Assembly: GCF_002777745.1 (NCBI RefSeq)
Contig: NZ_MEIO01000059.1
Coordinates: 1-40,539 of the forward strand
Source of the DNA: Snodgrassella alvi
GTDB taxonomy: Bacteria > Pseudomonadota > Gammaproteobacteria > Burkholderiales > Neisseriaceae
DNA: 40,539 nucleotides
Direction: 5' to 3'
Each line of letters opens with the position of its first letter. Within the stretch, counting starts at the first letter, position 1. Below the pieces are notes generated by a model. The model worked only from the letters and a program-made list of their open reading frames with translations. It was not told the origin of the DNA and did no database searches. Below, piece after piece: positions 10,715 through 29,954 of this stretch. Made by a program: the position numbers and the translations under genes.

Positions 10715-10726
10715 ATTTAAATACCT

Positions 10727-11014: not shown

Positions 11015-11022
11015 TAGTAGCA

Positions 11023-11061: not shown

Positions 11062-11089
11062 TTACTAATTTGTGAGATATATATTTTTA

Positions 11090-11487
11090 TCAGTATACAT
11101 TAAAATCTATATCAGCACTGATACTTGCTATGAATTTCAATACATCGGGTTTTAACCGCATTACAGGATATTCATCATTTTCCAAATGGATAACCACATC
11201 AAAAAGCATATCAATATTTAACTCAGACCTTATTCGATTTAGAATATCTTCTTTACCTTGTATTAAACCAATTATTTTTTTAATTGAATATTAATATCGT
11301 CTGATTTTTCATAGCCAGTATCTATACACCACATTGTTTCTACTGCTGGCCGAGTTCTTCCTATTGGAATAATCCCCTTGATGCTTGTACTATTTGGAAG
11401 AATATTTAAAAGATCAGTTATAGCACTCGGTTGAAAATGTTCACCATAAATGAAAAATGCAACTTTTAAGGATGATGTCGTTTCCAT
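11090..11487 (-). pseudogene. DUF4279 gene with a one-base deletion (copy C)
   Basis: Begins METTSSLKVAFFIYGEHFQ and is very close to copy B. A tract of 8 T in copy B is 7 T here (around 11274-11281), which shifts the frame and stops the protein at 71 residues. After the shift the homology continues in another frame to the equivalent stop at 11090. Length arithmetic (398 nt versus 396 plus one codon minus one base) confirms a single deletion. A homopolymer sequencing error or phase variation is possible. Confidence 0.8.
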
Positions 11488-11499
11488 ATTAAAATACCT

Positions 11500-12511
11500 T
11501 TATAAAATATAACCTGTAGGTATGCCACTTTCTTTACTTCCTTTATTTCCTTTTTTTCTTAAAATCCACAACTTTCCAGATTTTTTATCAACATATATAT
11601 CATAGCGTTTAATCTCAGCGTTGCGTCCTAAAAATTCCTGTTTTATTTCATAAACATTATGACCTCTTTGTTTCAAATAATTGTCATCAACTTTTTTAAG
11701 TCTTTAGGTTTATCCTCTCCATTATCCTGATCATCAGGATCAGGCGGATTTGGTGCCCCTCCTATTATATTATGGCTGCTTGCGTCATTTATTTCTACGT
11801 TTTCATCTCTACAGTCATCATCTGATCTATCATTAAATATTGGAGGTGTAATTAAACTTTTAGCACCCCATCTAATGCCCCATCTGATTGCTTCTTTTGC
11901 CAGATATCTGCAAGCTGGATTGGCCACACATAGTCGTATCCCTGCTGTTGCAACTCCTGCTCCTGCAACCACCGCCGGAGCAATCTCCCCAGTCGGATCA
12001 CTGTATATACCAGTGGATTCCCACCTACATAACTATAGGTATTTATTCCTCCCTCCAACCCTATCGGATCACTCTGGATATATCGCCCAGTCTTCGCGTC
12101 GTAATCACGGAAGTAGTTATAGGACAGGCCGGTCTCTGCATCATAGTACTGTCCCGGAAACCGCAGGTTCATGGTGATCTGGTTGTTTGCGTCCAGTTCG
12201 CTGTTGCCAAATGCATCGCTATTGATTTTCCAGCTCTGTTCTCCATGGCTGTTTATGGCCAGTTGCGGGGTGCCCAGATGGTCACTTATCAGGTAGTGAT
12301 AGCTGGCATTTTTCAGACTCTGGCCTTCGCTCAGATTGACCTGCTATAAGGGGCTGGTACCCCAGTCGCTGTCCGGCTTCCAGCCATACGCTACGCGTAT
12401 TCTGCCATTCTGATCCAGTTCGGCCAGCAGGCCTTCGCTGCTGTAGATATAGTAGGTGATCTTGCCGTTTACGATTTTGCTGATACGCCGGCCAAACGGG
12501 TCGTATTGGTA
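11500..12511 (-). pseudogene. Rhs core end with toxin tip C, several frameshifts
   Basis: Starts in the core at about 12511 and runs through SAEGLLAELDQNG-like and NLRFPGQYYDAETGLSY segments to SDPIGLEGGINTYSYVGG. Defects are a TAG for Trp in TSPLWQ, a TA insertion after NPLVY (TATATA for TATA near 12003-12008), and a frame change at A-AAA-AAG (11691-11697). The tip begins IAPAVVAGAGVATAGIRL, then a Pro/Asp-rich linker, then DNYLKQRGHNVYEIKQ and the end ESGIPTGYIL at 11500. It is the only one of the three homologous tips still joined to an RHS core. Confidence 0.8.
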
Positions 12512-12697
12512 TCAGTTAGAAGAATATATCTTCCTATATGTTTTTTGTATTATATTGTAGTGGTTAAATTTATTATGCTCTATGATTTTAAAAAAATAAA
12601 TCTCTAGCAAAAGTAAATTATATATATTAATTTACCCTGCTAAAGTTTTATAAAAATTTATAGTTATAGATAAATGTACTTTAGGCATTGATATTTA

Positions 12698-12832
12698 TTA
12701 ATAACAAATACTGATACTCGGAATCCTATGTGGTAGTTTTTGAGGCTTAGAATGTCCTCCAGTTTCATTTTTTCTTAATTGCCTTTTCCAAACATGAATT
12801 AAAAATACATCTTCTATTTTATTCAAAATTCT
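12698..12832 (-). pseudogene. Possible tip remnant
   Basis: About 44 open codons without a start: NKIEDVFLIHVWKRQLRKN, then ETGGHSKPQKLPHRIPSIS, stop at 12698-12700. It follows the family X gene at 12852. The composition is protein-like but I cannot link it to a family, so it may be chance. The rest of 12512-12851 is AT-rich with nothing recognisable. Confidence 0.25.
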
Positions 12833-12851
12833 TTAAATCTAAATAAATTAA

Positions 12852-13481
12852 TTAATTTTTGAACTCTTTTTTAGATTTAAAATGCTCTAGCTCTGTATTG
12901 TATTTTTCATAATAATCTTTAAATCTTTCTCTATCATAGAGTCGTTTATAAAGATATTCTCGTCCATATATGGCATTATTTATATCTTTATGAGCAAATC
13001 CCTCTTTTTCCCAGTCACGAAGTATAAATAACTGTTTCTTTTCTTCATCTGATAGCATATTGAGCTTTTTGATCAATATATTCTCTTGAGCACGAGTATC
13101 CATATTATAATGCCATATATATATACTTTTTATTTCATTATCAATTTCCTTACTATGAGTTAAATTTTCATGGAAATTATTGTCAGCCAAAACCTGTCTG
13201 GCATAGCGTGCCAGACAAAAGCGATAGGGTCTTTTCCAGTCTTCTGGTTTCTCTAACTGAGTAATAAATTTCTCGGCCTGCTCAAACCATTGCTTACGCT
13301 CTATATCGGCGTCTAAAATTTGGAAACTGAAAGATTTATAAGACTCCCATGTATCTTTCCTTTTCACGATTACATGTAGATAAAGATTGTCTCCGGCTTT
13401 ATTAATATAACAAACAATGGCTGCGAAATAATTATTTTGCGCCAGACACAGTCCTGTAAACTTATTTTGCTTATTGTTCAT
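12852..13481 (-). CDS. Putative immunity protein, family X member 2
   Basis: Protein of 209 residues. It shows the family blocks KRKDTWESYKSF, QLEKPEDWKRPYRFCLARYA (~75-94), ENILIKKLNMLSDEEKKQL and FILRDWEKEG, and ends with the block YLYKRLYDRERFKDYY. It starts 31 nt after member 3 (13513-14121) and is closest to it in sequence, so the pair looks like a tandem duplication. No toxin tip lies directly before the pair, so these are orphan immunity genes. Confidence 0.65.
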   Translation of the reverse strand: MNNKQNKFTGLCLAQNNYFAAIVCYINKAGDNLYLHVIVKRKDTWESYKSFSFQILDADIERKQWFEQAEKFITQLEKPEDWKRPYRFCLARYARQVLADNNFHENLTHSKEIDNEIKSIYIWHYNMDTRAQENILIKKLNMLSDEEKKQLFILRDWEKEGFAHKDINNAIYGREYLYKRLYDRERFKDYYEKYNTELEHFKSKKEFKN

Positions 13482-13512
13482 GATATACCAACCAATCCTA
13501 AATAATATTTAA

Positions 13513-14121
13513 TTAAAATAATTTATCATTTCTTTCAAAATTTTCCAGTTCTTTCATATATTTCTCATAATCTTTTTTTACTATTTCTTTGTCATATAAA
13601 AAATTATAAAAAATTTCACGACAATTAACAGAATAAAATACATCCTCGCAGGCGTATGCTTTTCTTTCCCAATCACGAAGTATGAATAACTGCTTTTTTT
13701 CTTCATCTGGTAACAAATTTAGTTTTTTGATTAATGCGGTTTCTTTTAACCGCGAAATGATGGTATAGCGATAGATATATTCATCACCTATACCCTTATT
13801 ATAAACTAAATTTTCCCAAAAATTGTCATCTTCCAAAATCTGTCTGGCATAACGCGCCAGACAAAAACGATGCGGTCTTTGCCAATCTTCCGGTTTATCT
13901 AACTGGTTAATAAAGTTCTCGGCTTGTTCAGACCATTGTGCGCAATCCACATCCGAGATAATATCCCGCCATCTGATAAAATCCGCCCGTCTAACTAAAT
14001 TTTCACAAAATCCATAAGATTCCCATGTATCTCTTCTATACACTTTTCCAGAGGTAGAAACAGCAAAATAATTATTTTTCGCCAGATACCTTGTTTGCAA
14101 CTCATTTACCTTATCATTCAT
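13513..14121 (-). CDS. Putative immunity protein, family X member 3
   Basis: Protein of 202 residues with YRRDTWESYGF, QLDKPEDWQRPHRFCLARYA, SRLKETALIKKLNLLPDEEKK, FILRDWERKA and a somewhat diverged end (FYNFLYDKEIVKKDY). No secretion signal. Probably cotranscribed with member 2. It may guard against a tip carried by sister cells rather than one in this genome; this is inference. Confidence 0.65.
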   Translation of the reverse strand: MNDKVNELQTRYLAKNNYFAVSTSGKVYRRDTWESYGFCENLVRRADFIRWRDIISDVDCAQWSEQAENFINQLDKPEDWQRPHRFCLARYARQILEDDNFWENLVYNKGIGDEYIYRYTIISRLKETALIKKLNLLPDEEKKQLFILRDWERKAYACEDVFYSVNCREIFYNFLYDKEIVKKDYEKYMKELENFERNDKLF

Positions 14122-14705
14122 GGTACGTCAACCAATTTTAAATATTGTTTATTTCTACCATTTTTTTTTGAAGTCTTCAACTTTTGGTGTTTATTGTGTA
14201 TGTTTCTTCATTCATTATATGCGAATTATTCCTATATTGGATTATTTATATCTTTATAGTTTATTCTTTAACCATAACTATGAGTACATTCGCTTTGCTG
14301 TATATTTATTCGTTGGTTAGTGTCATTATTATTAATATATAATGATCTATTCACATTCATCACCTATAGAAATACAATTTACTGTTTATGAACTTATTTC
14401 TTATATATTACCTATAATTTGAATTAATTTAAAATAAAAATTAATATAATAGACAATAAGAATAGCGTATAAAATATGCTATTCTTGCAAAAGAAGCGGT
14501 AAGTTCTTTTTTAGCTTTCAGACTTGTCTAGCCGCATTATATATTCGTTAGTGCTCTGATAATATTGCTTCGCTCTGTACCTGAAACCAAATCGAAGAAG
14601 CTTAAAGATTATACAATAAACATTTTTAGTCTTTCATACTCTAAACTCCATTAATATAATTCTAATTTTTAATTAATTCAATTTAAAATATTTACTAGAT
14701 TAAAA
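14122..14705. other. Intergenic stretch without a supported gene
   Basis: AT-rich spacer between family X genes. On the minus strand near 14520-14600 a short open piece (FRYRAKQYYQSTNEYIMRL followed by DKSES and a stop) looks like the tail of a decayed protein. A faint echo of the same words (RFDTEQY, STDSF) occurs on the plus strand near 5595-5635 behind the insertion sequence. I cannot name it. One strong hairpin lies at 14458-14486. Confidence 0.4.
14458..14486 (-). terminator. Strong hairpin, probable terminator
   Basis: AAGAATAGCGTAT and ATATGCTATTCTT form a 13-bp stem (one G-U pair) with a 3-nt loop. It lies 220 nt after the end of the family X gene at 14706-15299. The T run after it on the minus strand is weak, so the terminator role is tentative. 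Confidence 0.5.
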
Positions 14706-15299
14706 TTATTCATCTTCATCAAGTTTTCCAAAGACACTTTCTACTTTTTCCCAATATTTCTTATAATAAGTCTCATATTTTTCTTTATCATATAATCTTT
14801 CATATATATGTTTACGTCCATAAATAGCATAAGTAACACCTTCTCCTATACTACCTTCGATTTCCCAATCCTTTAGGATAAATAATTGAATCTTCTCATC
14901 TATAGATAGTTGATTTAATTTCTTAATTAATACAGTTTCTTTTAATCTGGAGATAAGCATATAACGGTTTATATCCTCATTGCTTAACATATTACAAGAT
15001 AACTTCCAAGATAACTCCCCAAAAAAAGAATCATCATTTAAAACCTGACGAGCATAACGAGCTAGGCAATAACGATGTGGTCTTTTCCAATCAATTGGTA
15101 CTTTTAATTTACTAATACACTCATGTGCTTTAGATATCCAAAATTTTTCATCTGTATTAAAAATATTAAAAGAAGTATAAAATTCAAATGTATCCAATCT
15201 ATAAATAATAACAAATACACGATAATCATCTATATATGCAACATTAGCTGCAAAGTGATCATTTTTAGCCAAACATTCTGGTATTAGAATATCATTCAT
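14706..15299 (-). CDS. Putative immunity protein, family X member 4
   Basis: Protein of 197 residues with VIIYRLDTFEFYTSF, LKVPIDWKRPHRYCLARYA, SRLKETVLIKKLNQLSIDE, FILKDWEIEG and YERLYDKEKYETYYKKYW. It starts 47 nt after the end of an Rhs toxin tip (15347-16878). It is the only family X member directly behind a tip, so it is the best candidate for a cognate pair and shows which toxin the family answers. Confidence 0.68.
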   Translation of the reverse strand: MNDILIPECLAKNDHFAANVAYIDDYRVFVIIYRLDTFEFYTSFNIFNTDEKFWISKAHECISKLKVPIDWKRPHRYCLARYARQVLNDDSFFGELSWKLSCNMLSNEDINRYMLISRLKETVLIKKLNQLSIDEKIQLFILKDWEIEGSIGEGVTYAIYGRKHIYERLYDKEKYETYYKKYWEKVESVFGKLDEDE

Positions 15300-15346
15300 A
15301 TTTACACCATTAATTTAATTATAAAAATATATGTAAAAATATGAAA

Positions 15347-16878
15347 TTAATTATACTTCCTTTTTAAATGATTTGGGACCGGTTTCTCACCCCCTATATC
15401 CCTCCATGACATTTCCAATATTTCATCGGCCTCTGAATCATAATCACATTTATTATCTTGAGCTGCTTTCACTAAAGTTTTCAAAGCATTCAAAGTCGCA
15501 TTATATCTTTTCTGATGCCCCCAGTCTCCTCCGTTATATTGAAGCCTCTCTCCAGCTCTTATTCTTATGCGCATTACTAAGTAATGAATATCATGTTCTA
15601 GTTGTTTACAACGTGTTTCTCTACCGTTTGGATCATGCCAATACCCTTTTTTTCCAGAACATTGCTTAATCAAGCCTGCTTCTTTTGGATGTTTTTCTGA
15701 GCTAATATATGGTAATTCATCAACAGCTCCATTACTTCCTATATCTTGTAAATTTTTTCTACACTCAGGAACTAAAAAACATAATCCTAATCCTGCTCCT
15801 ACTAATCCAACATTTCCAGCTTCTTTTCTAGTTTCCCCAATTGCACCTACCACTCCTATAGGAAATACATCAGCCTCCCCAGTCGGATCACTGTATACCA
15901 TCGGATTCCCACCTACATAACCATAGGTATTTATTCCTCCCTCCAACCCTATCGGATCACTCTGGATATACCGCCCTGTCTTCGCATCGTAATCACGGAA
16001 GTAGTTATAGGACAGGCCGGTCTCTGCATCGTAGTACTGTCCCGGAAACCGCAGGTTCATGGTGATCTGGTTGTTTGCGTCCAGTTCACTGTTGCCAAAC
16101 GCATCGCTATTGATTTTCCAGCTCTGTTCTCCAGTGCTGTTTATCGCCAGTTGCGGGGTGCCCAGATGGTCGCTTATCAGGTAGTGATAGCTGGCATTTT
16201 TCAGGTTCTGCCCTTCGCTCAGGTTGGCCTGCCATAAGGGGTTGGTACCCCAGTCGCTGTCTGGCTTCCAGCCATACGCTATGCGCATTCTCCCATTCTG
16301 ATCCAGTTCGGCCAGCAGGCCTTCGCTGCTGTAGATATAGTAGGTGATCTTGCCGTTTACGATTTTGCTGATACGCCGGCCAAACGGGTCATATTGGTAG
16401 CTAGCCAGTTCGCTGGTGTCGTTGCTGACTTTGCTCAGGCGTTCGGCTGCGTTGTAGCTGTAGCTGAGTTTTTTATTGGCACTTTCTTCTGTGGACAGTT
16501 GACCATTGGCGGTATAGGTTAAGCTGGTCTGCTGTTTACCTTCTCCCCATTTGATTAGCTGGTTAAGGTCGTTGTACTGCCACTCGCCTGCCTGCTGGGC
16601 GCTGCCTATGCGGTTGCCGATGGCATCGTAGCTGTAGGATTCGGCGCGCTGCTCTGTGGTTTCACTATCCGGTTTGACTTGGGTTAGTCTGTCCAGTGGA
16701 TCATACTGGTAGTGGCTGCTGCCTTTTTCGGTCTGGATATGGCTGATGTTGCCGGCGGCATCGTATTAATACTGTATGCGATTGCCATTGGTCTGTTTCT
16801 GTTCTATCAGCTGGTTAGCCCGGTTGTAGCTGTATTCAACATTATTGCCCAATGTTTTGGTTTCTTTGATCAGGTTGC
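15347..16878 (-). pseudogene. Orphan Rhs core end with toxin tip (no N-terminal part)
   Basis: Core homology starts at about 16878 (NLIKETKTLGNNVEYSYN). An in-frame TAA (16766-16768) occurs in the QYQYDAAG block. An internal deletion joins DAAGNIS to HIQTEKGSS. From 16765 the frame is open to 15347. The tip follows the core signature SDPIGLEGGINTYGY and VYSDPTGEADVF: a short hydrophobic part (GNVGLVGAGLGLCFLVPEC), then YWHDPNGRETRCKQLEHDI, HYLVMRIRIRAGERLQYNG and NATLNALKTLVKAAQ. The conserved His, Arg and Cys in the last part suggest an enzyme, but I do not assign a family. Confidence 0.82.
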
Positions 16879-16912
16879 TTCCTTAGTTGTAAATAAAAAG
16901 AATTTAACAAAA

Positions 16913-17065: not shown

Positions 17066-17512
17066 TTATTTTTTACATAAATTAGGATCTATATTATGTT
17101 CATATATAAGTATATATCTGTTTTTTTCAGATAATTCACCTATAACATACCAATTTTGGCGTGGCTCTTTCCAAATGTTATATTCTGAATACATACACCA
17201 TCCTCTCTCTATTTTTTTATCAATTTTCTTTAATTGTGTCATTTGAGCGCTATTTAGATATAATTGTTCTTTGTTTTCTATTTTATTATTCAAGGTAAAA
17301 TAAACTTTGAGTTCATTTGTTTCAACATTAGTTTTAACATAAATATTTCTAGATTCCTTTGGAAAATTTTCTGGTAGCCAACTGTTCACACCAGCATCAG
17401 GTAAAATATCTGTATATTTTTCATAATATGTTACATTTGTTGAATCCAAAAGACCACATCCATAAAGAATAAATCCATATAAAAATAACAGTTTTGTATA
17501 AGATTTTACCAT
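17066..17512 (-). CDS. Lipoprotein, putative immunity protein of the main Rhs toxin
   Basis: Protein of 148 residues with a lipoprotein signal: short basic start MVKSYTK, hydrophobic LLFLYGFILYG and a Cys at residue 19 (LYGCG). The mature part is soluble and beta-rich, with NIYVKTNVETNELKVYFTL and QNWYVIGELSEKNRY. The start codon shares its A with the rhs stop (TAATG), so the two are translationally coupled. An envelope-anchored immunity protein implies that the toxin tip acts in the periplasm or at the membrane of a target cell. Family not recognised; the role is inferred from position. Confidence 0.72.
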   Translation of the reverse strand: MVKSYTKLLFLYGFILYGCGLLDSTNVTYYEKYTDILPDAGVNSWLPENFPKESRNIYVKTNVETNELKVYFTLNNKIENKEQLYLNSAQMTQLKKIDKKIERGWCMYSEYNIWKEPRQNWYVIGELSEKNRYILIYEHNIDPNLCKK

Positions 17513-20500
17513 TATAAATATCCCTCATCTTCTAGTACCTTCATTGTTTTCTTATGATTTGGATTAAGGAATTTTCTACATCTATCTTGACAACTGATAT
17601 CAACAGGACAACTTAATCCATAATCATTTACTTTTAGATCTTCTTCATTATCTTTTATCATTTCCTGATGAGAAAACATTTTACCTTTTCCATAAAGTCC
17701 AACACGTCCCAGAATATAATCACGGTTTTCTTTCCTTCTACCAAACCATCTAGCCATCCTATTACTTGCGTTCTTATCTTTTGAGACTCGACAGAATGCT
17801 ATACAATGAAAAAATTGATCTGATGAACCCAATTGAAGTCTTTCCATATCATTTAAAACTGAATTAAGTACGTTGAACGTATGTCCAGCCCTAGCTCCTA
17901 ACTTACCTAATAGATCATATTCATCTATCTTGTAATGACTTTTTACTACTTCATAATAATAATCTTTTAATCCAAATGGATCAATAAACTTCAGCGTATT
18001 ATCATTTGCATATTTATATGTATTTATTCCACCCACCAACCCTATCGGATCACTCTGGATATATCGCCCAGTCTTCGCATCGTAATCTCGGAAGTAGTTA
18101 TATGACAGACCGGTCTCTGCATCGTAGTACTGTCCCGGAAACCGCAGGTTTATGGTGATCTGGTTGTTTGCATCCAGTTCACTGTTGCCAAACGCATCGC
18201 TATTGATTTTCCAGCTCTGTTCTCCAGTGCTGTTTATGGCCAGTTGCGGAGTGCCCAGATGATCATTTATCAGATAGTGATAACTAGCATTTCTCAGGCT
18301 CTGGCCTTCGCTCAGGTTGGCCTGCCATAAGGGGCTGGTACCCCAGTCGCTGTTTGGCTTCCAGCCATACGCTACCCGCATTCTGCCATTCTGATCCAGT
18401 TCGGCCAGCAGGCCTGCGCTGCTGTAGATATAGTAGGTGGTCTCACCGTTTACAGTTTTGCTGATACGCCGGCCAAACGGGTCGTATTGGTAGCTGGCCA
18501 GTTCGCTGGTGTCGTTGCTGACTCTGCTCAGGCGTTCGGCTGCGTTGTAGCTGTAGCTGAGTTTTTTATTGGCACTTTCTTCTGTGGACAGTTGACCATT
18601 GGCGGTATAGGTTAAGCTGGTCTGTTGTTTGCCTTCTCCCCATTTGATTAGCTGGTTAAGGTCGTTGTACTGCCACTCTCCTGCCTGCTGGGCGCTGCCT
18701 ATGCGGTTGCCGATGGCATCGTAGCTGTAGGATTCGGCGCGCTGCTCTGTGGTTTCGCTATCCGGTTTTACTTGGGTTAGTCTGTCCAGTGGATCATACT
18801 GGTAGCTGCTGCTGCCTTTTTCGGTCTGGATGCGGCTGATGTTGCTTACTTTGTCGTAGCTGTAGTTCCGTTCGAGTAAGGTCTGACCTTTGCTGCTTAG
18901 TTTTATCTGTACCGGGCGCTGTAAGGCATCATAGCTGTTGGTTTGTTCTGCCTGTGGATAGGTGATGCTGCGGGCTTGGTTCCACTGGTAGTTACGCCAG
19001 TTGATTTCTTCTCCGTTGGGTAGTACGGTTTTTTGTAATTGGTCGTTGGCATAGCTATAGGTTACGGTGCTGTTATCTGGATAGGTGATGCTGGCCAGAT
19101 TGCCATCGGCATCGTAGCTGTATTTCAGGATTTGTTTGAGGTTGCCATAGCTGATGGTTTCCTGTACTACTCTGCCTAATGCATCGCGCTGATAGGTGAA
19201 GTGGCTGTTGGTGTGGCCACTCTGCTTTACGTCTATCAGCTGGTTGTTGGCATTATATTGGTAGCTGACTGTCTGTTCGGCTGTGTCTTCTCCGGCGGCG
19301 ATGTAGTTTTGCTGGCTGATGTTGCCGGCGGCATCGTATTGATACTGTATGCGATTGCCATTGGTCTGTTTCTGTTCTATCAGCTGGTTGACTTTGTTGT
19401 AGCTGTATTCAACATTATTGCCCAGTGTTTTGGTTTCTTTGATCAGGTTGTTGTTCTGATCATAGGTGAAGTGATACTGGTTGCCATTTGCGTCGGTAAG
19501 GCCGGTGAGGTTGTTGAACTGGTCGTACTGGTACTGGTTTTTTCCAGATAGTGCATCTATGTTTGCATTAAGCTGACCTAAGGCGTTGTATTCGCTCTGG
19601 CTGGTACGGTTGGCGGCATCAGTCTGGCTGATGAGCTGGCCCAGTTGGTCATAGCTGCTATGGCTGCTCAGTTCTGTATTGTTGTCTAGCTGCTGGGTTA
19701 CGCTGATGGTGTTACCCATGTTGTCGTAAGTATAGCTTTCGCTATAGGTCGGGTAGTTGATTTTGGTCAAAAGACCGGCAACGCGCGAACCTGATGTACC
19801 ATATTCGTATACGCGTTGATTACCACTGTAATCTATCTGCCGAATTAATCTACCCATACCATCATAGCTTTGTTCATTCACTAATCCAGAAGCTGTAGTT
19901 GTTCTAATTATACTATTTTTAATATTTAATTGCTTAATTTTAATATGATTAAGTGCATTAATCTCTTTAATTTCCCAAATATTATTATTAAATGAATAAT
20001 TGTATCGGGTTTGATTCCCTTGTGGATCAATTATTTTAGTAATTTTCCCCATCGAATCTACTGTAAAACTAGTTGTATGATTTAATGGATCTGAAATTGC
20101 TGACAGATATCCGGCCGGGTTATAGTTCAGTTGCCATTTCTGTTGTAATGGGTTCTGTATTTCGGTTGGCTGTCCTTGTATGTTATAGCTGTAGTGGTAC
20201 TGCTGCCCTTTGCCGTCGGTATAGCTGGCTATGTTGCCGTAACGGTCGAAGCTCTGCTGCAGGCTGATGCTTTGTTTGCCGCTGGCTATGGTGGCTTTGA
20301 TCTGCTGCCCCAGACTGTCGTACTCGAAGTTGACTACGCGCTGTTCGGGTTTGCCGGCGGCATAGGTGATTCTGGTGGGCTGGTTGGCCGCGTTGTATTC
20401 AAAGGTGATGCTGTCGCCTTTGGCATTGGTCTGTCTGACCGGTTTGTTGGCCTGGTTGTACTGATATTCTTCGATGGCACCATTTGGATAGGTGATTTTA

Positions 20501-21660
20501 ACCGGATAGTCGGCTTGGTTATACTGGGTGGTGGTAACCAGTCCGCGTTCGTCGGTGTATTTGACGATGTTGTTGGCACTATCACGCTGATAGCTGGCGG
20601 TGAGGCTGCCATTGATGCTTTCGCTCAGTACGCGCCCGTTGCTGTCAAATACGGTGACGGTTTTTTGGCCTGCCGGATCGTTTACGGTGATGGTGTATTG
20701 TTTGTTAACACGGTTGTATTCGGTGTTGTAAACGGTTACTGCTCCGGTTTTGCTGGTGATTTTGCCTACCCGCGCCAGTTTGTTTTCATGATCGGCTGCT
20801 CCGGTGCTGACTACGGCACTTTGCGAGACAACGCCTCCGGCTTTGCCGCTGCCCATGGCTATTCTGCGGGTGGGTACGGACAGGACGTAATCAATTTTGG
20901 TGACGCCGCCATCGGGATCGGTACGGCTGGTGAGCTGGCCGTTGTTGTCGTAACCATACTTCCACACGTTACCCATAACATCGGTAACCTGAGTCAGACG
21001 GTCACCAGACCAGTTATAGCTCACGCTGCGTCCGCTGCGGTCGGTAGCTTTGATCAGGTGTTCCTGGTTATCGTAATCCAGGCTGTATACCAGTTCGCCG
21101 TTGTGGTCTTTGATGGCAGTACGGCGGCCATCTTTGTCCAGTTCAAAGCTGACTTGGATGTTGCTGGCATTGCCATAGGCTAATGGCCGCCCTTTGCTGT
21201 CGTAGTTTATCCAGTTACCTTGCGGATCGGTCCAGCGCCAGCCGCTGTCGGTTTTTTTGATTGTGACTTGTTTGTAGCTATATAGGTCGGCGTCGCCGCT
21301 ACGCTGGTACAGGGTACCGGCACGGTCGATGGTTTTGACGCTGCTATCGAGTGGATCAAGTACGAAGCGTAGATCTGCCCACGCCGGATTAAGGTACCAG
21401 CGTCCGTTTTCCCAGGTACGGTTGAGTTTAACTTCGCCACCTAATACCTTCACTCGCATGTCTATGGTGTTTTCGGTGTACTCGGTATTCGGTAATCTGA
21501 CACTTGCATTACTTACGCCTGATATTTTTTGGCTATTATCTGTTATGCGGGCATAAGCCATTTGTGGCAGTGCCATGATCAGCATAAGGATATAGCTGAT
21601 TACCCGGAACAGCCGGTCTTTTAAGCTGTTCCCGGGTCGTATGGTGTTTTTTGTTTTCAT
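17512..21660 (-). CDS. Sec-exported Rhs polymorphic toxin
   Basis: Protein of 1382 residues and the only complete rhs gene here. Residues 1-38 are a long signal peptide (basic start, hydrophobic VISYILMLIMALP, cut after AYA). There is no PAAR domain. YD/RHS repeats run from about 190 to 1100. The RHS-associated core follows with LLAELDQNG, YHYLINDHLGTPQLA, NLRFPGQYYDAETGLSYN and SDPIGLVGGINTY. The toxin tip is about residues 1232-1382 and has FFHCIAFCR (~1282), FSHQEMIKDNEED (~1328) and CPVDISCQDRC (~1350); its activity is unknown to me. Start supported by AAGGGT about 8 nt upstream. It lies 38 nt after the scaffold gene. Its core is nearly identical to the orphan fragments downstream, which allows tip exchange by recombination. 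Confidence 0.95.
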   Translation of the reverse strand: MKTKNTIRPGNSLKDRLFRVISYILMLIMALPQMAYARITDNSQKISGVSNASVRLPNTEYTENTIDMRVKVLGGEVKLNRTWENGRWYLNPAWADLRFVLDPLDSSVKTIDRAGTLYQRSGDADLYSYKQVTIKKTDSGWRWTDPQGNWINYDSKGRPLAYGNASNIQVSFELDKDGRRTAIKDHNGELVYSLDYDNQEHLIKATDRSGRSVSYNWSGDRLTQVTDVMGNVWKYGYDNNGQLTSRTDPDGGVTKIDYVLSVPTRRIAMGSGKAGGVVSQSAVVSTGAADHENKLARVGKITSKTGAVTVYNTEYNRVNKQYTITVNDPAGQKTVTVFDSNGRVLSESINGSLTASYQRDSANNIVKYTDERGLVTTTQYNQADYPVKITYPNGAIEEYQYNQANKPVRQTNAKGDSITFEYNAANQPTRITYAAGKPEQRVVNFEYDSLGQQIKATIASGKQSISLQQSFDRYGNIASYTDGKGQQYHYSYNIQGQPTEIQNPLQQKWQLNYNPAGYLSAISDPLNHTTSFTVDSMGKITKIIDPQGNQTRYNYSFNNNIWEIKEINALNHIKIKQLNIKNSIIRTTTASGLVNEQSYDGMGRLIRQIDYSGNQRVYEYGTSGSRVAGLLTKINYPTYSESYTYDNMGNTISVTQQLDNNTELSSHSSYDQLGQLISQTDAANRTSQSEYNALGQLNANIDALSGKNQYQYDQFNNLTGLTDANGNQYHFTYDQNNNLIKETKTLGNNVEYSYNKVNQLIEQKQTNGNRIQYQYDAAGNISQQNYIAAGEDTAEQTVSYQYNANNQLIDVKQSGHTNSHFTYQRDALGRVVQETISYGNLKQILKYSYDADGNLASITYPDNSTVTYSYANDQLQKTVLPNGEEINWRNYQWNQARSITYPQAEQTNSYDALQRPVQIKLSSKGQTLLERNYSYDKVSNISRIQTEKGSSSYQYDPLDRLTQVKPDSETTEQRAESYSYDAIGNRIGSAQQAGEWQYNDLNQLIKWGEGKQQTSLTYTANGQLSTEESANKKLSYSYNAAERLSRVSNDTSELASYQYDPFGRRISKTVNGETTYYIYSSAGLLAELDQNGRMRVAYGWKPNSDWGTSPLWQANLSEGQSLRNASYHYLINDHLGTPQLAINSTGEQSWKINSDAFGNSELDANNQITINLRFPGQYYDAETGLSYNYFRDYDAKTGRYIQSDPIGLVGGINTYKYANDNTLKFIDPFGLKDYYYEVVKSHYKIDEYDLLGKLGARAGHTFNVLNSVLNDMERLQLGSSDQFFHCIAFCRVSKDKNASNRMARWFGRRKENRDYILGRVGLYGKGKMFSHQEMIKDNEEDLKVNDYGLSCPVDISCQDRCRKFLNPNHKKTMKVLEDEGYL

Positions 21661-21698
21661 GTTATGACCCTTGTATTTGGTTAGTTTTTAGTTGTTAG

Positions 21699-24600
21699 TT
21701 ATTTGGCTCCGCTGCCTGTACCACCTGTGCTACAGGATGCATCTGGTGTACAGCCCGGGGTGATGGGCATGGCTGCTGGCGAACCAGCTCCGGCTCCGCT
21801 TCCGAAACTGCCGCCGCCACCGCCTAGCGAACCACCGCCAGCCCAGCCCCAGCTGGCGCCTTTGGTAGAACATTTTTTGCCGGAGTACTGATAGAAGCGC
21901 CCGCTGCTGCTGCCTTTGGAAATGTCTCCACTGGGGCATTCACTTTGGTGTGTCTCTTGGTAGCTGGCTTCGTAAGAAGTGCAGTCTTCCTCATCCTCTG
22001 CAGGTGCTGCGCGTAACAGACTTGCAAATGTACTGGTTCCGGTTTGTGCCGATGCCGGCTGTTTTGGATCAAGAGCGGTAACCTTATATGAAATAACTAC
22101 TTTTTCTTTTGGTTTTAGTACACTGGGTACTTCGCCAAAGAATTCATACTTAAATCTGGAATCTGTTTTAGGTAGGTTTAACGACACATTATCGGCTTGT
22201 ACCAGTCCATAATTACTTACTGTAATCTGGCCGGTTTTTTCTTCCCCAACCTGCATACCGCCAAGGTTAATGGATAGTGGTTCCAGCAGAATTACTGGTG
22301 CTGGTACCTGCGTATTAAAGGAAGCATTTACATTAATGTCATAGACATCTTTTATGGTGGTTTCAGTTACACCAAACTCTACATTTATGGTTTGATACTC
22401 TAGAAAAATATGCTGATTGGTAGTAGTATCAGGCTGAATGACAATACGGCCGCTGGCATCCATATGATTGGGTGCGCTAACCCGGTAGCGGTAAATACCT
22501 GCTGGCAGTTTACTTAATGAAGCAATACCATCTTTATCGGTGTTGAGGGTATATTGTTCAGTGAGTACTTCATCATTCTGCAACTTGATAGTTGCCCCTT
22601 TAACACCTTTAATCGGCTGACCTTGTGCATCCAGTGTAGCGGTATAAATATCAGCCACATCAAACTGGGCAATGCCTTGTCCACTCTGGGTAACAGAAAT
22701 GCTTACCGGAATGGTGCCGGAAAGTTTGCCACCTGTAGACACTCTGATGATAAAGTTGTAGATACCATCTGCAATGCTGTTGTCTGGTTGTGCCACGATT
22801 TGTACTGGTACTTTTTCATCTACCGCAATGGCATCAATATTTTTGTCACTGGCAATAAATACCCAGCTCGGTGCAGGATTACCCTGTTTATCTACCAGCT
22901 CTATCTGAACATTTTCAGCTTTCGCCAAACCTTTATTGCCTACGCTGACATTGGCTGTGGTGCTTGTATTCTGCTGTAAGCCGGTCTGGATATAGCCTGG
23001 AGATGCATACAGATCAGGCATGGGCTGACCAAGCTGATAATTAATCTGTAATTTACCCCGTACCAGATCACCGGAATCTTCGGCAAAGGCCACCAGATAC
23101 AAGCTGCCTTTTTCTGCTGCATTATTATCTGCTGTAAATTTAATTGTTGTGGTGCGGCTTTGGCCGGGTGCAATATCTACTGCTTCAGTCTGGATATTGA
23201 TGCCTTGTGGTAATACGCCATCTGGCTGATTTTCAGGTGCAAGCACCCAGCGCAATTTTTTGGCACCGGTACTGGCAGTGGCATTAATTTGTATCGGTGT
23301 TGTGATGGTGCGCGGAGCCTTGAGCTGATAGCCCTGAAGATTAAAGGCAATCCGGTTAATGGCAAAACTGCCCTGATGGCTAACGGTTTTTTCGTCAGGA
23401 TGAATAATGCCTACCTGATAAGTTCCCGAATCAGACTCTTGAGGAGTAAAGGTATAGGAAAAATGGCCGGTTTCATCTGTGGCAACGGCAATTTTTCGTT
23501 CAAAGCCTTTTACATTCAATACCAGCTTCAGCGGAACACTGGCTGCGGCCGTATTATCAGCACGATATAGTGCCTGACCAGTAATGGTAACTGGCTGCGG
23601 ACCATAGCTAACAGCCGGACTGATTGCCGTAATTTTACCGGTATAAGGTGTAGGTGGCGGTGCCGGCGGTTCTATTTTGACCTTGACTGTACGTGTACTG
23701 GTGATTGTCTTGCCACTGGTATTGGTGACTTTTGCCGTTAGTTTATGGCTACCGTTATCCTGTATGGTAAGTGGCCAGTGTGCCTGATAGGGGCGTTCTG
23801 TCAGTGTGGCAAAACGTTTGTCATCAACCAGCAGCTCAACTTTTTCGATGCCCAGTTCGTCTGCTGCATCTACCTGAATATCTACCGGAGCAGCAAGAGT
23901 CTGATTATCGGCGGGTGTGGTAATTATGCCTGTGGGTATTGGCAAGGCAAAATCAAATGTTACCGGTGCACTGGGTTCACTGCGACCATAATTATTTTGC
24001 CCGATAGCATGCAAGCGGTAACTACCTTCTTTGCTTAACTGGATATCCTGATTAAAATAGCCTTGAGTATTCACGACTACAGGCTGGCCAACCGGTTGGT
24101 TATTCAGATACAACTGCACTTTACTACCCGATTCAGCTGTACCCTGAACCTTTAATTGGGCGGTTTTAACCTTTGTCTGGGTAACCGGGCTGATCAGTAC
24201 TGGCGGTGTAAGTACAATAGCCGCAGCCTGAGTGTAGCCAGAGCTGTTACCTGCTTTATCAACTGCATTCAGGCGAGCATATAACGCACCTGTAGATGGC
24301 ATATTGTCAATCTGCACACTATTGGCTTGAACATTAATATCCTTATCCACCAATGGCTGTTTAAAATCAGGATTATTTGCTATCTGTAGGTGTACTGAAG
24401 CAATACCACTCAGGTTATCGCTGCTGGTGTAACCGATTCGGACTGCGTTTTCATTGACGCGATTAAATTTACTCAGTTCAATAACTGGCTTGGTAGTATC
24501 AATCGTTGTGGCACCGGATCGTGCAGACCATGGCTCCCATGTACCGCCATTATTAATACTTCCCCTTACTCGGGCACGATAAGATTTGCCATTCTGTAAA

Positions 24601-25496
24601 CCATCATTGAAAGTAAACTGATTGATATTATTCAGTACTTCTTTATGAACAGAATTACCGGAAGCATCCTGAATTTCGATTTCCCAAGTATTAAGTGTAT
24701 TAATGTTCTGCCATGACCAGGCTGGCGGCTGATTACTATATCGGGCAGCAGGTTTTGGCGCAGGTGGCGTTAAACCCGAAATATCAATAAATTCATATTC
24801 GGCATTTTCATCTTTACTGTAATCCGTTAAATCACCATTAGGCGTAAATAGAATTGCCTGTTCTGGTTTAATCGTATCTGCCTTATTGCAACCTATCTGC
24901 ACATTGCTTGGCCGCATCCCCTGTATCCCAATGGTGGCTTCTTTGCCTTTGCTGCGATTATCATTTAATGAGCGATATTGATATTTAATCTGGTTTGAGC
25001 CTTCATACAGAATAGCCTGAAATGTGCCCATAGGCAGATTGGAGCCATAAAAGTACTGATTTGTCCATTGAACAATTAGTTTTCTCTCGGGTGCCTCTCC
25101 CTGAGTTTCGTATTTAATGGTGCCTGTAGTTTTCCCGGCAACATTCGTTCTTAAATCATCCCAGAATACATACAATGTATTATTCAGTGCTGGCAGACAA
25201 TAATTACTATAACTGGATGTTGGATTTTCAAATTGCAATAATCCATTAGTACTGACATAAAATTGATTATAATTTTTGCCATAATAATTAAAATCAAAGC
25301 CTATCGGTAATGCGCCACTGACTATATCGTCACCATTCAAACGCGTGTCGGTACCTGCATAGCTGGATGCATAGGCAATGGTGCATAACGCACAGAAAAT
25401 CATTACATATGGTTTTTTCTGCTTATTTTTATGCTTTTGCTGTTTTTTTGGGTTTAAACCGGGAAACCGGTTTTTCCAGTATTGATAAATATTCAT
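21699..25496 (-). CDS. Large exported scaffold with NIDO-like, Ig-like and CARDB-like domains
   Basis: Protein of 1265 residues from the ATG at 25496, chosen over the upstream ATG at 25553 because GAGGGG lies just before it. Long signal peptide with a ~30-residue basic start (KKQQKHKNKQKK), then VMIFCALCTIAYASSYA. A NIDO-like module follows (IGFDFNYYGKNYNQFYVS, ALNNTLYVFWDDLR). Then come Fn3/Ig-like modules, Ig-like repeats with TITTPADNQ-type starts, and a CARDB-like module (PDLYASPGYIQTGL). A carboxypeptidase regulatory-like module (KDGIASLSKLPAGIYRYRV), another beta module, and a Cys- and Gly-rich tail complete it. It is probably an extracellular partner that displays or exports the Rhs protein; this is inference from operon order. 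Confidence 0.82.
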   Translation of the reverse strand: MNIYQYWKNRFPGLNPKKQQKHKNKQKKPYVMIFCALCTIAYASSYAGTDTRLNGDDIVSGALPIGFDFNYYGKNYNQFYVSTNGLLQFENPTSSYSNYCLPALNNTLYVFWDDLRTNVAGKTTGTIKYETQGEAPERKLIVQWTNQYFYGSNLPMGTFQAILYEGSNQIKYQYRSLNDNRSKGKEATIGIQGMRPSNVQIGCNKADTIKPEQAILFTPNGDLTDYSKDENAEYEFIDISGLTPPAPKPAARYSNQPPAWSWQNINTLNTWEIEIQDASGNSVHKEVLNNINQFTFNDGLQNGKSYRARVRGSINNGGTWEPWSARSGATTIDTTKPVIELSKFNRVNENAVRIGYTSSDNLSGIASVHLQIANNPDFKQPLVDKDINVQANSVQIDNMPSTGALYARLNAVDKAGNSSGYTQAAAIVLTPPVLISPVTQTKVKTAQLKVQGTAESGSKVQLYLNNQPVGQPVVVNTQGYFNQDIQLSKEGSYRLHAIGQNNYGRSEPSAPVTFDFALPIPTGIITTPADNQTLAAPVDIQVDAADELGIEKVELLVDDKRFATLTERPYQAHWPLTIQDNGSHKLTAKVTNTSGKTITSTRTVKVKIEPPAPPPTPYTGKITAISPAVSYGPQPVTITGQALYRADNTAAASVPLKLVLNVKGFERKIAVATDETGHFSYTFTPQESDSGTYQVGIIHPDEKTVSHQGSFAINRIAFNLQGYQLKAPRTITTPIQINATASTGAKKLRWVLAPENQPDGVLPQGINIQTEAVDIAPGQSRTTTIKFTADNNAAEKGSLYLVAFAEDSGDLVRGKLQINYQLGQPMPDLYASPGYIQTGLQQNTSTTANVSVGNKGLAKAENVQIELVDKQGNPAPSWVFIASDKNIDAIAVDEKVPVQIVAQPDNSIADGIYNFIIRVSTGGKLSGTIPVSISVTQSGQGIAQFDVADIYTATLDAQGQPIKGVKGATIKLQNDEVLTEQYTLNTDKDGIASLSKLPAGIYRYRVSAPNHMDASGRIVIQPDTTTNQHIFLEYQTINVEFGVTETTIKDVYDINVNASFNTQVPAPVILLEPLSINLGGMQVGEEKTGQITVSNYGLVQADNVSLNLPKTDSRFKYEFFGEVPSVLKPKEKVVISYKVTALDPKQPASAQTGTSTFASLLRAAPAEDEEDCTSYEASYQETHQSECPSGDISKGSSSGRFYQYSGKKCSTKGASWGWAGGGSLGGGGGSFGSGAGAGSPAAMPITPGCTPDASCSTGGTGSGAK

Positions 25497-25534
25497 TGTG
25501 TGCCCCTCATTGGTCTGAAAGCTCCTTAAATAAG

Positions 25535-26395
25535 TTATATGGTTAACCGGCAAGGTCTGGATAAGCTCTGTCCGGCATGTTTAATTAATTTTGTTTGTTG
25601 TTGTACATAGTGCTGATAAGCAGTTATTCCCCCTCGCAACCAGATAATATTGGCCGAATCGGCAAAACTGATTTGCTGTTGCAACCTTTTTACAGTCTGC
25701 TTATCCGGGCTAACCAGTACATAATGGATAAAATCATTACTACTTTTAGAATTATTATGAATAAACTGTTTGAGCACTGATGCTGTTGTTTGTGACAGTG
25801 CAAACTGTTTAACCGGCTGTTCTGGTAATGTAGCCAGCTGTTCAGCATTCAAGCCTATCGCAATAATCTGCCAGCGAATAGTTTTACCTCCAGATAAAAA
25901 CTCTTCTGCAGAAATTTCCTGCTGGCGTAAATGTACAGGCTGGTGTAATTTTTGCCATGCGTAAATCCCTCCGTTCAAAGCAAAAATATGCTTAAAGCCT
26001 TTTTTTCTTAAATGCTTAATAGTCTGATTAATTGGTAGCTGATCAAACCCGCTGCCAACCAGAATAACGGGTTTATCAAATAGGAATTGGGCACCAGACA
26101 ACTGATGAAGCGGAATAGCCAGCATATCCAGTCCGGATTCTTTGTCCTTAATGCCAGACCTTACATCCACCCAGACAGCATGCTGCAACTGTTGCTGACT
26201 CAACTGCTGTATGGTTAGCCAGTTTTTTTTATCCAACGGCTGTTTATTGCGGTTATCAGGCCAGCTTATGGCTACAGGCAATATTGTCGGATCAGGCTCA
26301 TTATTCTGGCAGGCAGTAAAATCCTGTGCGAATATCCGGGCACTAATAAAAAATAATAATCCTAAAAATACAATAACTTGCTTTAATTTCAGCAT
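25535..26395 (-). CDS. Exported tandem rhodanese-fold protein without active-site Cys
   Basis: Protein of 286 residues with a signal peptide (VIVFLGLLFFISARIFAQ). Two rhodanese-like modules are visible. The first has WVDVRSGI, then VILVGSGFDQLPINQ and GFKHIFALNGGIYAW. The second has YVLVSPDKQTVKRLQ and IIWLRGGITAYQ. In active rhodaneses a Cys follows the central beta strand (V.YC..G.RS); here the position is Gly or Ser in both modules, so sulphur transfer is unlikely and a binding role is more plausible. It is the first gene of the operon, 38 nt before the scaffold gene. Confidence 0.75.
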   Translation of the reverse strand: MLKLKQVIVFLGLLFFISARIFAQDFTACQNNEPDPTILPVAISWPDNRNKQPLDKKNWLTIQQLSQQQLQHAVWVDVRSGIKDKESGLDMLAIPLHQLSGAQFLFDKPVILVGSGFDQLPINQTIKHLRKKGFKHIFALNGGIYAWQKLHQPVHLRQQEISAEEFLSGGKTIRWQIIAIGLNAEQLATLPEQPVKQFALSQTTASVLKQFIHNNSKSSNDFIHYVLVSPDKQTVKRLQQQISFADSANIIWLRGGITAYQHYVQQQTKLIKHAGQSLSRPCRLTI

Positions 26396-27521: not shown

Positions 27522-29954
27522 TTATTGGCCATTTTTTCCCTCTCGTGCTACAGATATAGGAAGTGTAACCGAATTATTACTTTTATCTGGATCTGCCAAC
27601 TGGCTCTGTACCCGAGCAATGAATTCACCCTTACCATTTTCTGTATTTACCTTTACAGTCAGCAATACAATAGCTGCATCGCCCGATGATAATTTATCAA
27701 CCCGTTTTTCTGCTTTATTATAATTGCCCATTAGTACTTTCTGACTGGTTATTTTCAAATCAGAACTTAAGACAGATTGCAGATAAATATTGCGTGCCTC
27801 CATTGGTCCATTATTACTGATGGTTAATAATAGTTGTACACAATCATCAGGCAGTGTAGGTACTCGTCTCAGTTTCTCAACCTCCAGCACAATATCAGCT
27901 ACACCAGGCTGAACAGCAAGGCTAACCTGATTATTGCTTAAATCAGCATCTTCAGTCTCACTATTTACGCGTGCAGTGAACTGACCTACTTTTTCAGCAC
28001 CCGTTATTTTTACTGTCAGCAACAACGCCGTGCTTTCACCAGCGGCAAGTTGATCAATCCGTTCATCCTGAGTATTGTAATTTCCTGCTACAATTTTCTG
28101 ACCGGTAATTTCAAGATTATCAGGTAAATCAGCCTGCATATAAATATTGCGTGCGATTCCTGATCCTTGATTTGAAATAGTCAGCAATAACTGCACTGTA
28201 TCCTGTGGTAATACAGTATCCGGTTGTACGAGCTCAATATTTAATGAAACATCTGCTTTCCCTAGTAAAGAAGGCTGGTTAGCTTTTTGCTTCGCAAACA
28301 GATTATTTTCTGCATGCATATTTTCTGTTAGCACAATATGCTCAATTTTGCCCGCAACAGCATTACCTCCGGCACTACCCGCAACAGCAGGTCCATCAAT
28401 CATACCCTCAATATCGGTAACCCAGATATTATAGTCGCCCACAGGTAATTTATCGAAAATAAACTTACCTGAATCATCAGTATAGTTAACCTGCTCAATT
28501 CTGTTGCCAGCGTTATCCCGTCCGGATAAGACAACTTTGATGTGGCTCAGTCCGGGTTCACCACTATCCAGCAGACCATTTGCATCCAGATCATTGTATA
28601 CCTTACCAGCAATTATGCCCTTAGCCTGAACAACACCATGTTTAAATAATTTATATTGTCCGGTTGAATCATGATCAAATACATTCACATAATAAGACCA
28701 AGACAAATCTTTATTACGTGATTTAGATAACCAGACATTATCATTTAATAAGCGTTTTCCATCCGAACGCACAACATCATGTGGCTGCTTGCTACCTTTA
28801 AAAGGATCAGCTACTTTGGTATAGACAAACCCACTGGTGGCCGGAAAAGTTAGCTGATAGCCATCACTGGCTGCTTTTAAAGCAGCCTGATTACTTTGCT
28901 CAGTTACTTCTGAATCCGCACCATTTGATTGGTACAGGCGTACCACATCACCATCAAGTGCCAGAAAATCGGTAACATTATCACTATCAGGCAAATCAAC
29001 TTTCACATCATGGATTAAAGTGTGTGTATTCGTAGCTTTTAGCAGGCTGGTAACTGCACCACCCAAAGTATCTGCATGAGTGAATGTCGCATTGAAATCA
29101 GTAAACGTACCCGACAGACTGGCACTCATATTCCAGCGGCCGACAGTAGTAGCACCCGCATCTATATCGCCAAAATTCAACAACAAACTCTTGCTGGTGG
29201 ATTGATTACCGATATAACTACCTAAAATATTGAAATCTACCAGTAAATTCTTTTTATTTTCCACAATTTTAGGCTGAGCTGAATCAATCATGGTTTTATA
29301 GGAAACACCTTTACCTTCATTTTTTACGCGTACACCGAAAGAAAACGGGATAGGTGGTTCTTCCTCCGCGGTAAAAGGATCATCTCCGTAAACTTCACCC
29401 GGCAAAAAATAATCCAGTGTCAGCAATGGCTGTGGTTTCACCACCACATAATCAGGCACAACATCAACTGTAGTTTTCTGTCCGTTGAGTTCATACGTCA
29501 GTCTTGCGCCAATATTGTAAAGCGTATCCTTATCCTTGGCAGCTCCGTAGGCTGGTATAATCAGCCAGTGAATATCCGCGTTGGATTTTGCTGCTATCTG
29601 CCCTGTTCCGCTGATATCATTAACCCCAGAAAGGGAATTAATGCGATAAAAGAATTTGGCCTTATTATCATCAGTTTTCTGAGTTACCTCAACCGGCTGA
29701 TTATCCCTGTCAGTAAAAATCAGCTCAACTTGGATATTTTTTAAACTGGTATCCAGACCATTTTTAATTAACATCCGTGCGTCAAAAGCCTGTCGCTCAA
29801 AAGACAGTTTCTGCTCAATCACAATTTTAACTTCTGCACACTCTACATCCTGCGCAAATACTAATCCTGCTGGCATTATGCTACAGAAAAAAAACGCCAG
29901 AAGAGTCAGTATATGGCAAAATCCTTTGCAATACTTCAATAGCATACCCTTCAT
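27522..29954 (-). CDS. Exported CARDB/DUF11 and SdrB-type surface protein
   Basis: Protein of 810 residues with a signal peptide cut after LVFAQ-type sequence near residue 35. Residues ~40-440 are a beta-rich part without a family I recognise (LTLDYFLPGEVYGDDPF; GFVYTKVADPF). Residues ~448-520 form an SdrD B-like or carboxypeptidase regulatory-like module (GKVYNDLDANGLLDSGEPG, then FDKLPVGDYNIWVTD). Two tandem CARDB/DUF11 repeats close the protein (DTVQLLLTISNQGSGIARN and DCVQLLLTISNNGPMEARN). Start supported by AAAGG about 8 nt upstream. Similar architecture and strand suggest it belongs functionally with the Rhs operon, but it has its own terminator. Confidence 0.8.
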   Translation of the reverse strand: MKGMLLKYCKGFCHILTLLAFFFCSIMPAGLVFAQDVECAEVKIVIEQKLSFERQAFDARMLIKNGLDTSLKNIQVELIFTDRDNQPVEVTQKTDDNKAKFFYRINSLSGVNDISGTGQIAAKSNADIHWLIIPAYGAAKDKDTLYNIGARLTYELNGQKTTVDVVPDYVVVKPQPLLTLDYFLPGEVYGDDPFTAEEEPPIPFSFGVRVKNEGKGVSYKTMIDSAQPKIVENKKNLLVDFNILGSYIGNQSTSKSLLLNFGDIDAGATTVGRWNMSASLSGTFTDFNATFTHADTLGGAVTSLLKATNTHTLIHDVKVDLPDSDNVTDFLALDGDVVRLYQSNGADSEVTEQSNQAALKAASDGYQLTFPATSGFVYTKVADPFKGSKQPHDVVRSDGKRLLNDNVWLSKSRNKDLSWSYYVNVFDHDSTGQYKLFKHGVVQAKGIIAGKVYNDLDANGLLDSGEPGLSHIKVVLSGRDNAGNRIEQVNYTDDSGKFIFDKLPVGDYNIWVTDIEGMIDGPAVAGSAGGNAVAGKIEHIVLTENMHAENNLFAKQKANQPSLLGKADVSLNIELVQPDTVLPQDTVQLLLTISNQGSGIARNIYMQADLPDNLEITGQKIVAGNYNTQDERIDQLAAGESTALLLTVKITGAEKVGQFTARVNSETEDADLSNNQVSLAVQPGVADIVLEVEKLRRVPTLPDDCVQLLLTISNNGPMEARNIYLQSVLSSDLKITSQKVLMGNYNKAEKRVDKLSSGDAAIVLLTVKVNTENGKGEFIARVQSQLADPDKSNNSVTLPISVAREGKNGQ

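Follow-up and report, generated by a model that had tools for sequence, protein, structure and literature searches.

How does an Rhs toxin that begins with a predicted signal peptide and carries no PAAR domain leave its producer? To our knowledge the exit of signal-peptide Rhs proteins from Gram-negative cells, and their route to the target, is an open question, and it is raised here by an operon of Snodgrassella alvi on contig NZ_MEIO01000059.1 (assembly GCF_002777745.1), whose 40,539 nucleotides, analysed over their whole length, are called the window below (contig C59 of a 2.6 Mb genome). Our reading, to which we assign a probability of roughly two in three, is that the operon encodes a polymorphic Rhs toxin with a delivery end that seems adapted to Sec export and not to the type VI secretion system (T6SS). 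An initial annotation, made from the sequence of the window alone, had described a unit of four genes; the four open reading frames (ORFs) are all where it had placed them, on the minus strand, but a fifth gene, P5 (27522-29954), also belongs to the unit and had been missed. The parts of the operon are:

28647..29954, minus strand: N-terminal domain of P5 (P5N; residues 1-436 of P0005), with a predicted signal peptide and a conserved domain
27522..28646, minus strand: variable C-terminal part of P5, with SdrD_B and DUF11 repeats (Pfam), differing between hosts
25535..26395, minus strand: P4, predicted exported rhodanese-fold protein, with a Pfam match below the cut-off and no Cys in the loop
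21699..25496, minus strand: P3, predicted exported NIDO/Ig protein of 1265 aa, from the ATG start
22002..23645, minus strand: residues 637-1184 of P3 (numbering of the 1284-aa form), its conserved C-terminal part, a relative of which precedes Rhs in one Methylomonas ORF
17512..21660, minus strand: Rhs polymorphic toxin, whole ORF, 1382 aa (P0002), with RHS repeats by Pfam
21550..21660, minus strand: predicted Rhs signal peptide, residues 1-37 (heuristic)
20686..21528, minus strand: RhsN module, residues about 45-325, retained where the remaining core is exchanged between strains
17515..17970, minus strand: C-terminal toxin module of Rhs after the DPFG motif, polymorphic among relatives, low in GC, with an E. 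coli relative
17066..17512, minus strand: lipoprotein-like putative cognate immunity protein, with a relative that immediately follows the homologous toxin module in E. coli

At the start of the Rhs protein a charged n-region is followed by a hydrophobic core and an AYA site, as judged by a heuristic of our own that was applied to all signal peptides (charged n-region, hydrophobic stretch, A-x-A-like site); by the same heuristic P3, P4 and P5 also each start with a predicted Sec-type signal, and the N-termini of their relatives are similar by eye. PAAR was not found in the window Rhs by a Pfam scan at E<=0.05, the orthologues lying outside that scan, and the combination of a predicted signal peptide with a missing PAAR, as originally proposed, is upheld. 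The features of a polymorphic toxin are present, namely YD/RHS repeats, a DPxG junction and a variable C-terminal tip, with a GC content of 0.485 in the core, 0.314 in the tip and 0.253 in the lipoprotein gene. Such a contrast between core and tip is usual for Rhs proteins. Among the 12 carriers of the operon in Snodgrassella and Orbaceae the tips differ, as do the genes that follow them.

In the window the tip is followed by a lipoprotein ORF whose ATG overlaps the Rhs stop codon (TAATG) and which contains a lipobox-like LYGC by the heuristic, confirming the coupled downstream lipoprotein of the initial annotation. A relative of the tip, 53% identical, lies behind rhsD in an E. coli record (L124:5866-6847), and the next gene in that record encodes a 30% identical relative of the lipoprotein with an N-terminal hydrophobic stretch, which supports a putative toxin-immunity pair with a predicted periplasm-facing immunity protein; the lipoprotein is probably the cognate immunity protein of Rhs. 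The immunity gene varies between carriers, a general trait of polymorphic toxins, and falls outside the conserved set. The tip itself gave nothing better than E 0.23 against PDB sequences. The occurrence of the same pair behind E. coli rhsD also means that the tip is found with different delivery ends, and in G363 (L067/L068) two P3-Rhs pairs stand in one cluster, their Rhs proteins alike up to a HINT-like stretch and then ending in different tips (by eye).

The front of the protein behaves differently from the rest when compared with L022, a Snodgrassella whose P3 is 94% identical to that of the window: over Rhs residues about 50-325 identity is 64-96% per 25 residues, stretches of 100 residues beyond residue 400 reach only 37-64%, and the two tips are unrelated to each other. 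Because identity drops past RhsN, this module appears to be the part kept with the partners, with cocoon and tip being exchanged.

Of 14 Snodgrassella genomes 8 have P3, as do 4 of 44 in the Gilliamella family (Orbaceae); the 69 other genomes of the family of Snodgrassella yielded no full-length copy and one weak match (G081). In the named Snodgrassella records that were found, P3 is 92-93% identical in four of five cases and 80% in the fifth. P4, P3 and Rhs are contiguous in all 12 Snodgrassella and Orbaceae genomes with P3 (in G011 the Rhs runs off the contig), and the free variation of neighbours that had been named beforehand as evidence against a dedicated system was not seen; P5 lies upstream of the three in 11 of the 12, and the set is inherited together. 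Within Snodgrassella the ratio of nonsynonymous to synonymous substitution rates (dN/dS) is 0.07-0.25 for P5N, P4 and P3, with four of six values near 0.1, and these proteins are under purifying selection. Given this low dN/dS and a gene order that recurs elsewhere, the locus is beyond chance. The distance from P5 to P4 is 1126 bp in the window and shorter in two Gilliamella loci with P5 upstream (158 and 241 bp); no P5 or P3 remnant was detected in the window gap at E<=1. In one Snodgrassella (L022:6733-7602) a gene resembling YkuD L,D-transpeptidases stands between P5 and P4, flanked by short P5-like fragments; it was not seen at this place in the window.

As to the partner proteins themselves, P3 may start at TTG 25553 (1284 aa) or, judged by orthologues, at ATG 25496 (1265 aa). 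It had been called a NIDO-Ig-CARDB protein of 1265 residues, of which NIDO and Ig pass the Pfam cut-offs and the length fits the ATG start, but CARDB stays below cut-off; its NIDO part matches a RemA chain in PDB. P4, previously described as an exported rhodanese-fold protein, is indeed rhodanese-like with a predicted signal, although the window copy lies just under the Pfam cut-off (20.6 against 22.2 bits); the Eleftheria copy is above it. All 13 aligned copies of P4 are without Cys at the rhodanese loop, the second half being rhodanese-like by eye, and a transglutaminase encoded near P5 in many other hosts has invariant Cys, His and Asp in 9 of 9 copies, which makes P4 likely structural and the transglutaminase likely active. 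These assignments follow the general motifs of the rhodanese loop and of transglutaminases. In the Snodgrassella and Orbaceae loci compared, 8 of the 12, no transglutaminase was found. P5N (436 residues) has no match above the Pfam or NCBIfam cut-offs and none in PHROGs, a sub-threshold DUF1410 match being all that was seen. PADLOC returned nothing for P0001-P0005, and Pfam detected neither a TpsA-type secretion or filamentous hemagglutinin domain in these five proteins, as would be expected of contact-dependent inhibition or two-partner secretion (type V secretion), nor SpvB/TcdB domains in P0002, as would be expected of a Tc toxin B/C pair.

Beyond Snodgrassella and Orbaceae, relatives of P3 residues 637-1184 were found in Eleftheria, on two Methylomonas plasmids and, weakly, in Nostoc, a relative of the Rhs N-terminus in Methylomonas, and relatives of P5N in Eleftheria and Methylomonas (47-49% identical) and in Nostoc, all of them on plasmids. 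P3-like and Rhs parts are joined in one ORF of 4668 codons in Methylomonas, and P3-like and P5N-like segments in one of 4599 codons in Nostoc. A P5N profile recovered 3 of 399 genomes of the order (the window's own, G298 and G363) and 9 of 369 of the class (its own, seven other full-length carriers and one fragment in G648). Nine full-length P5 carriers beyond Snodgrassella and Orbaceae were compared (G298, G363, G590, G595, G752, G817, G638, G627 and G738); Rhs lies near P5 in the first six of them, as also in Eleftheria and Methylomonas, and P3 in five, P4 in six and the transglutaminase in seven. Of the six Rhs-bearing carriers five have a clear RhsN and G363 a weak one. Strong RhsN matches occur in 7 of the 369 class genomes, five of which are also among the eight full-length P5N carriers against 0.15 expected (hypergeometric 2e-8, or 7e-7 when the own genome is left out, with relatedness not corrected for). 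The other two are G755 and G746, the latter counted as strong on a contig of 3.3 kb that tells little about neighbours; weak matches in G554, G575, G622 and G843 (E 4e-15 to 9e-6, G622 being cut by a contig start) were not counted as strong.

In the trees of P5N and RhsN, the latter built without Eleftheria, G363 and Methylomonas, the Snodgrassella and Orbaceae copies stand together and next to G298, which has the order P5-P4-P3-Rhs with its Rhs frame broken near an ambiguous base. Since Snodgrassella is betaproteobacterial and Gilliamella gammaproteobacterial (PMC8125069; this and the other papers cited are represented by the part of their text accessible to us), this grouping makes horizontal transfer between the two lineages likely.

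Three lineages place the system beside a machine of type II secretion system (T2SS) character. In Eleftheria a minus-strand run comprises an IPT/TIG protein, a hypothetical protein, P3, Rhs, an ankyrin protein in the immunity position and P5, continues with GspG, GspF, GspE, three small proteins and a secretin with TPR and cohesin domains, and ends with three pseudopilin-like genes, P4 and the transglutaminase. Most of this plan is repeated in G363, where two P3-Rhs pairs are present and GspG was not recognised, and in G755 two RhsN-bearing Rhs genes directly adjoin genes for T2SSF, T2SSE, PilN, PilO, a TPR secretin and T2SSG. The three Rhs-linked secretins fall below every NCBIfam secretin cut-off, and that of Eleftheria is 60% identical to that of G363 and 34% to that of G755. 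Elsewhere in the G363 genome a further secretin (L154, G363:C1:1569001-1576000) is 42% identical to the Rhs-linked one of Eleftheria.

Several observations weigh against an Rhs locus built for Sec export with dedicated partners. The heuristic is the sole basis of the Sec signals; in one Snodgrassella (L023) P5 is represented by fragments alone over the 3.3 kb up to the contig end; besides the weak RhsN of G363, Eleftheria and Methylomonas stand outside the profile scoring; and G755 has RhsN and a secretion operon but no P5N. No Rhs was seen near P5 within 40 kb of G638 and 45 kb of Nostoc, which we keep as counterexamples, nor in G627 and G738, whose contigs end close by and which were treated as uninformative. 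These solitary copies would suit P3, P4 and P5 being primarily a surface adhesin or matrix fibre, with Rhs an optional passenger whose tip might or might not reach other cells. NIDO and Ig domains are typical of adhesins, and their presence in P3, the RemA match and the intact transglutaminase residues point in the same direction. Such an adhesin is nevertheless unlikely in our view, since Rhs accompanies P5N in six of nine carriers, in Eleftheria and in Methylomonas, where it is even fused to a P3-like part, and since the turnover of toxin tips and immunity genes resembles that of weapons.

A further point on the same side is that all 12 Snodgrassella and Orbaceae carriers also possess TssC, the T6SS sheath protein, which leaves T6SS dependence unsettled in these hosts; the Rhs toxins of the genus have moreover been linked to T6SS-1 (PMC5727410). 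Both facts would fit a conventional Rhs effector of the T6SS that an unseen adaptor loads, an explanation that we regard as very improbable: the window Rhs is without PAAR, orthologues with a plausible start have hydrophobic N-termini by eye, type II-like operons are linked to the system in three lineages, and Snodgrassella genomes with the operon have one or the other of two TssC types, or both. The window genome's TssC is 74% identical to a Gilliamella type and 38.5% to the other Snodgrassella type (types of genomes not aligned were read from profile scores, and which of the two is T6SS-1 we infer). Of 13 other genomes and records searched, six were positive for TssC, and among the nine full-length P5 carriers it is absent from G298 (100% complete), G752 (99%), G627 (94%) and G738 (82%), G752 having an intact Rhs; this count leaves out three plasmid records (that of Eleftheria with TssC, the other two without) and G648 (P5 fragment, no TssC). 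Because four of nine P5 carriers are without the sheath gene, T6SS is not required in those hosts and, judged by gene content, the system as such is not in need of it; a conserved Rhs system not tied to T6SS is well supported by these comparisons. Assignment to the T6SS Rhs effectors was rejected, there being no PAAR in the window Rhs and no T6SS in some hosts.

The initial annotation fares unevenly here. Its statement that no T6SS gene is present may hold for the window's contig, where there is no TssC match, but the genome has a T6SS, with TssC on contig C64. Dependence on T6SS, which it had named as a finding that would speak against it, is countered by the relatives in TssC-less genomes and left standing by the 12 Snodgrassella and Orbaceae carriers. 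Delivery free of T6SS with dedicated partners agrees with the conserved partners and the TssC-less hosts, although the partner set is bigger than stated.

The outer-membrane step brings the last points on the opposing side. Canonical GspD was found in all nine P5 hosts beyond Snodgrassella and Orbaceae (one secretin per genome scanned), a count of limited weight, GspD probably being common in this class. In the window's genome the only secretin match is PilQ, which breaks a universal T2SS route and would leave this type IV pilus secretin as the only candidate there; two further Snodgrassella genomes have one unclassified secretin each, and the four Orbaceae carriers two short ones each, the one scanned lying below the GspD cut-off. 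None of the secretins of the other eight P5 hosts and of three Orbaceae exceeds 113 bits to the three Rhs-linked ones. A universal T2SS route was therefore dropped, given an adjacent machine in three lineages only, dissimilar secretins in other hosts and PilQ alone in the window's genome; a type II-type exit is likely in hosts other than Snodgrassella and Orbaceae. PilQ as sole secretin, and the transglutaminase not found in those of their loci that were compared, would also suit Snodgrassella and Orbaceae copies that are non-functional leftovers of a system working only in T2SS-bearing bacteria. Their ORFs are intact, however, dN/dS within Snodgrassella is low for all three partners, and the order is preserved in two distant families whose copies group together, and we give leftovers very little credence.

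Returning to Sec export as the preferred reading, a mechanism can be outlined. Rhs would fold into a cocoon filled with the toxin, either in the periplasm or extracellularly, and RhsN would dock it onto the C-terminal part of P3, a role suggested by the P3-Rhs fusion of Methylomonas and by the recombination mosaic between RhsN and the remaining core. P3 and P5 may form an extended Ig-rich stalk or anchor, with P4, a rhodanese fold without the catalytic Cys, as a putative assembly or docking factor; the apparently active transglutaminase of many other hosts, not seen in the examined Snodgrassella and Orbaceae loci, could have a further part in assembly. The lipoprotein would protect the producer on the periplasmic side. 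Passage of the outer membrane would use a type II-type machine where one is present, adjacent in Eleftheria, G363 and G755 and represented by GspD elsewhere. All this would amount to an undescribed apparatus, in some lineages coupled to its own machine of the type IV-filament class and in Snodgrassella and Orbaceae reduced to a five-gene operon using neither T2SS nor T6SS; we put this complete picture forward tentatively, at less than even confidence. The operon itself is probably a little-studied way of toxin delivery.

The broad idea is already in print (PMC3482391, PMC10433427, PMC7259588), and the initial claim of an undescribed system stands only for the partner set, of which no description was found in the literature searched, mostly excluding subscription papers. 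Signal-peptide RHS polymorphic toxins form the 'T2SS/Sec-dependent' class of Zhang et al. 2012 (PMC3482391), which shares with the locus the signal peptide, the RHS repeats and the changing tips and immunity genes, some members being accompanied by Ig or transglutaminase-like domains. In that class the transglutaminase forms part of the RHS protein and is inactive, whereas here it is a separate gene with intact Cys, His and Asp, in other hosts, and the accessible text of that paper makes no mention of P5N, P4 or a P3 fusion. Bcn-A of Xanthomonas perforans is likewise an RHS toxin, comparable in length (1398 aa) and present in the supernatant, and its activity is lost in a mutant of the T2SS secretin (xpsD); it differs in that the bcnA product is described as lacking a signal sequence and in that its accessory ORFs encode 124, 100 and 290 aa, with no P3/P4/P5-like gene reported in the text available (PMC7259588). 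Rhs4 and Rhs5 of Myxococcus xanthus have signal sequences, T6SS-independent antagonism and a proposed surface location, but are proteins of ~4000 aa on prophages, with no partners described in the accessible text (PMC10433427). The T6SS PAAR-Rhs effectors of Snodgrassella share the Rhs core, the tip displacement arrays and the toxin-immunity pairs, but have PAAR and not a signal peptide and are linked to vgrG/T6SS-1 (PMC5727410, PMC8125069). A bee-gut survey reports Rhs genes in the T6SS-less Gilliamella apis and an Rhs core cluster common to Snodgrassella, Gilliamella and Frischella (PMC8125069), which is possibly the present one. A Methylomicrobium S-layer paper was considered as a precedent for rhodanese, transglutaminase and Rhs together and set aside, the three being separate genes in a mutation table in the part available.

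What the locus adds is a compact, conserved set of partners, a candidate docking module (RhsN to P3) proposed from a gene fusion together with a recombination breakpoint, and bacteria in which the genes of the operon could be deleted one by one. Counting every Rhs gene of Snodgrassella and Gilliamella as a T6SS effector may misassign this class.

Downstream of the operon lies one further feature:

645..16900, minus strand: displaced Rhs tip array with immunity-like genes, in pieces at 645-1110, 2059-2187, 6562-7250, 8704-9321, 12005-12517 and 15860-16900

Immunity-like families are repeated within it, those at 7359-7991, 12852-13481, 13513-14121 and 14706-15299 being alike by eye, and further Rhs tip and immunity pieces were seen on contig C54 of the same genome. 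On its other side the operon is adjoined by prophage genes (32640-39876, minus strand) that include a spanin, an endolysin, a tape measure protein and a weak head decoration match; genes similar to them by eye lie on contig C64 (L093), which also holds the T6SS. Two similar transposase/integrase-like ORFs, recognised by eye, lie inside the tip array on the plus strand, at 3-626 and 4951-5535.

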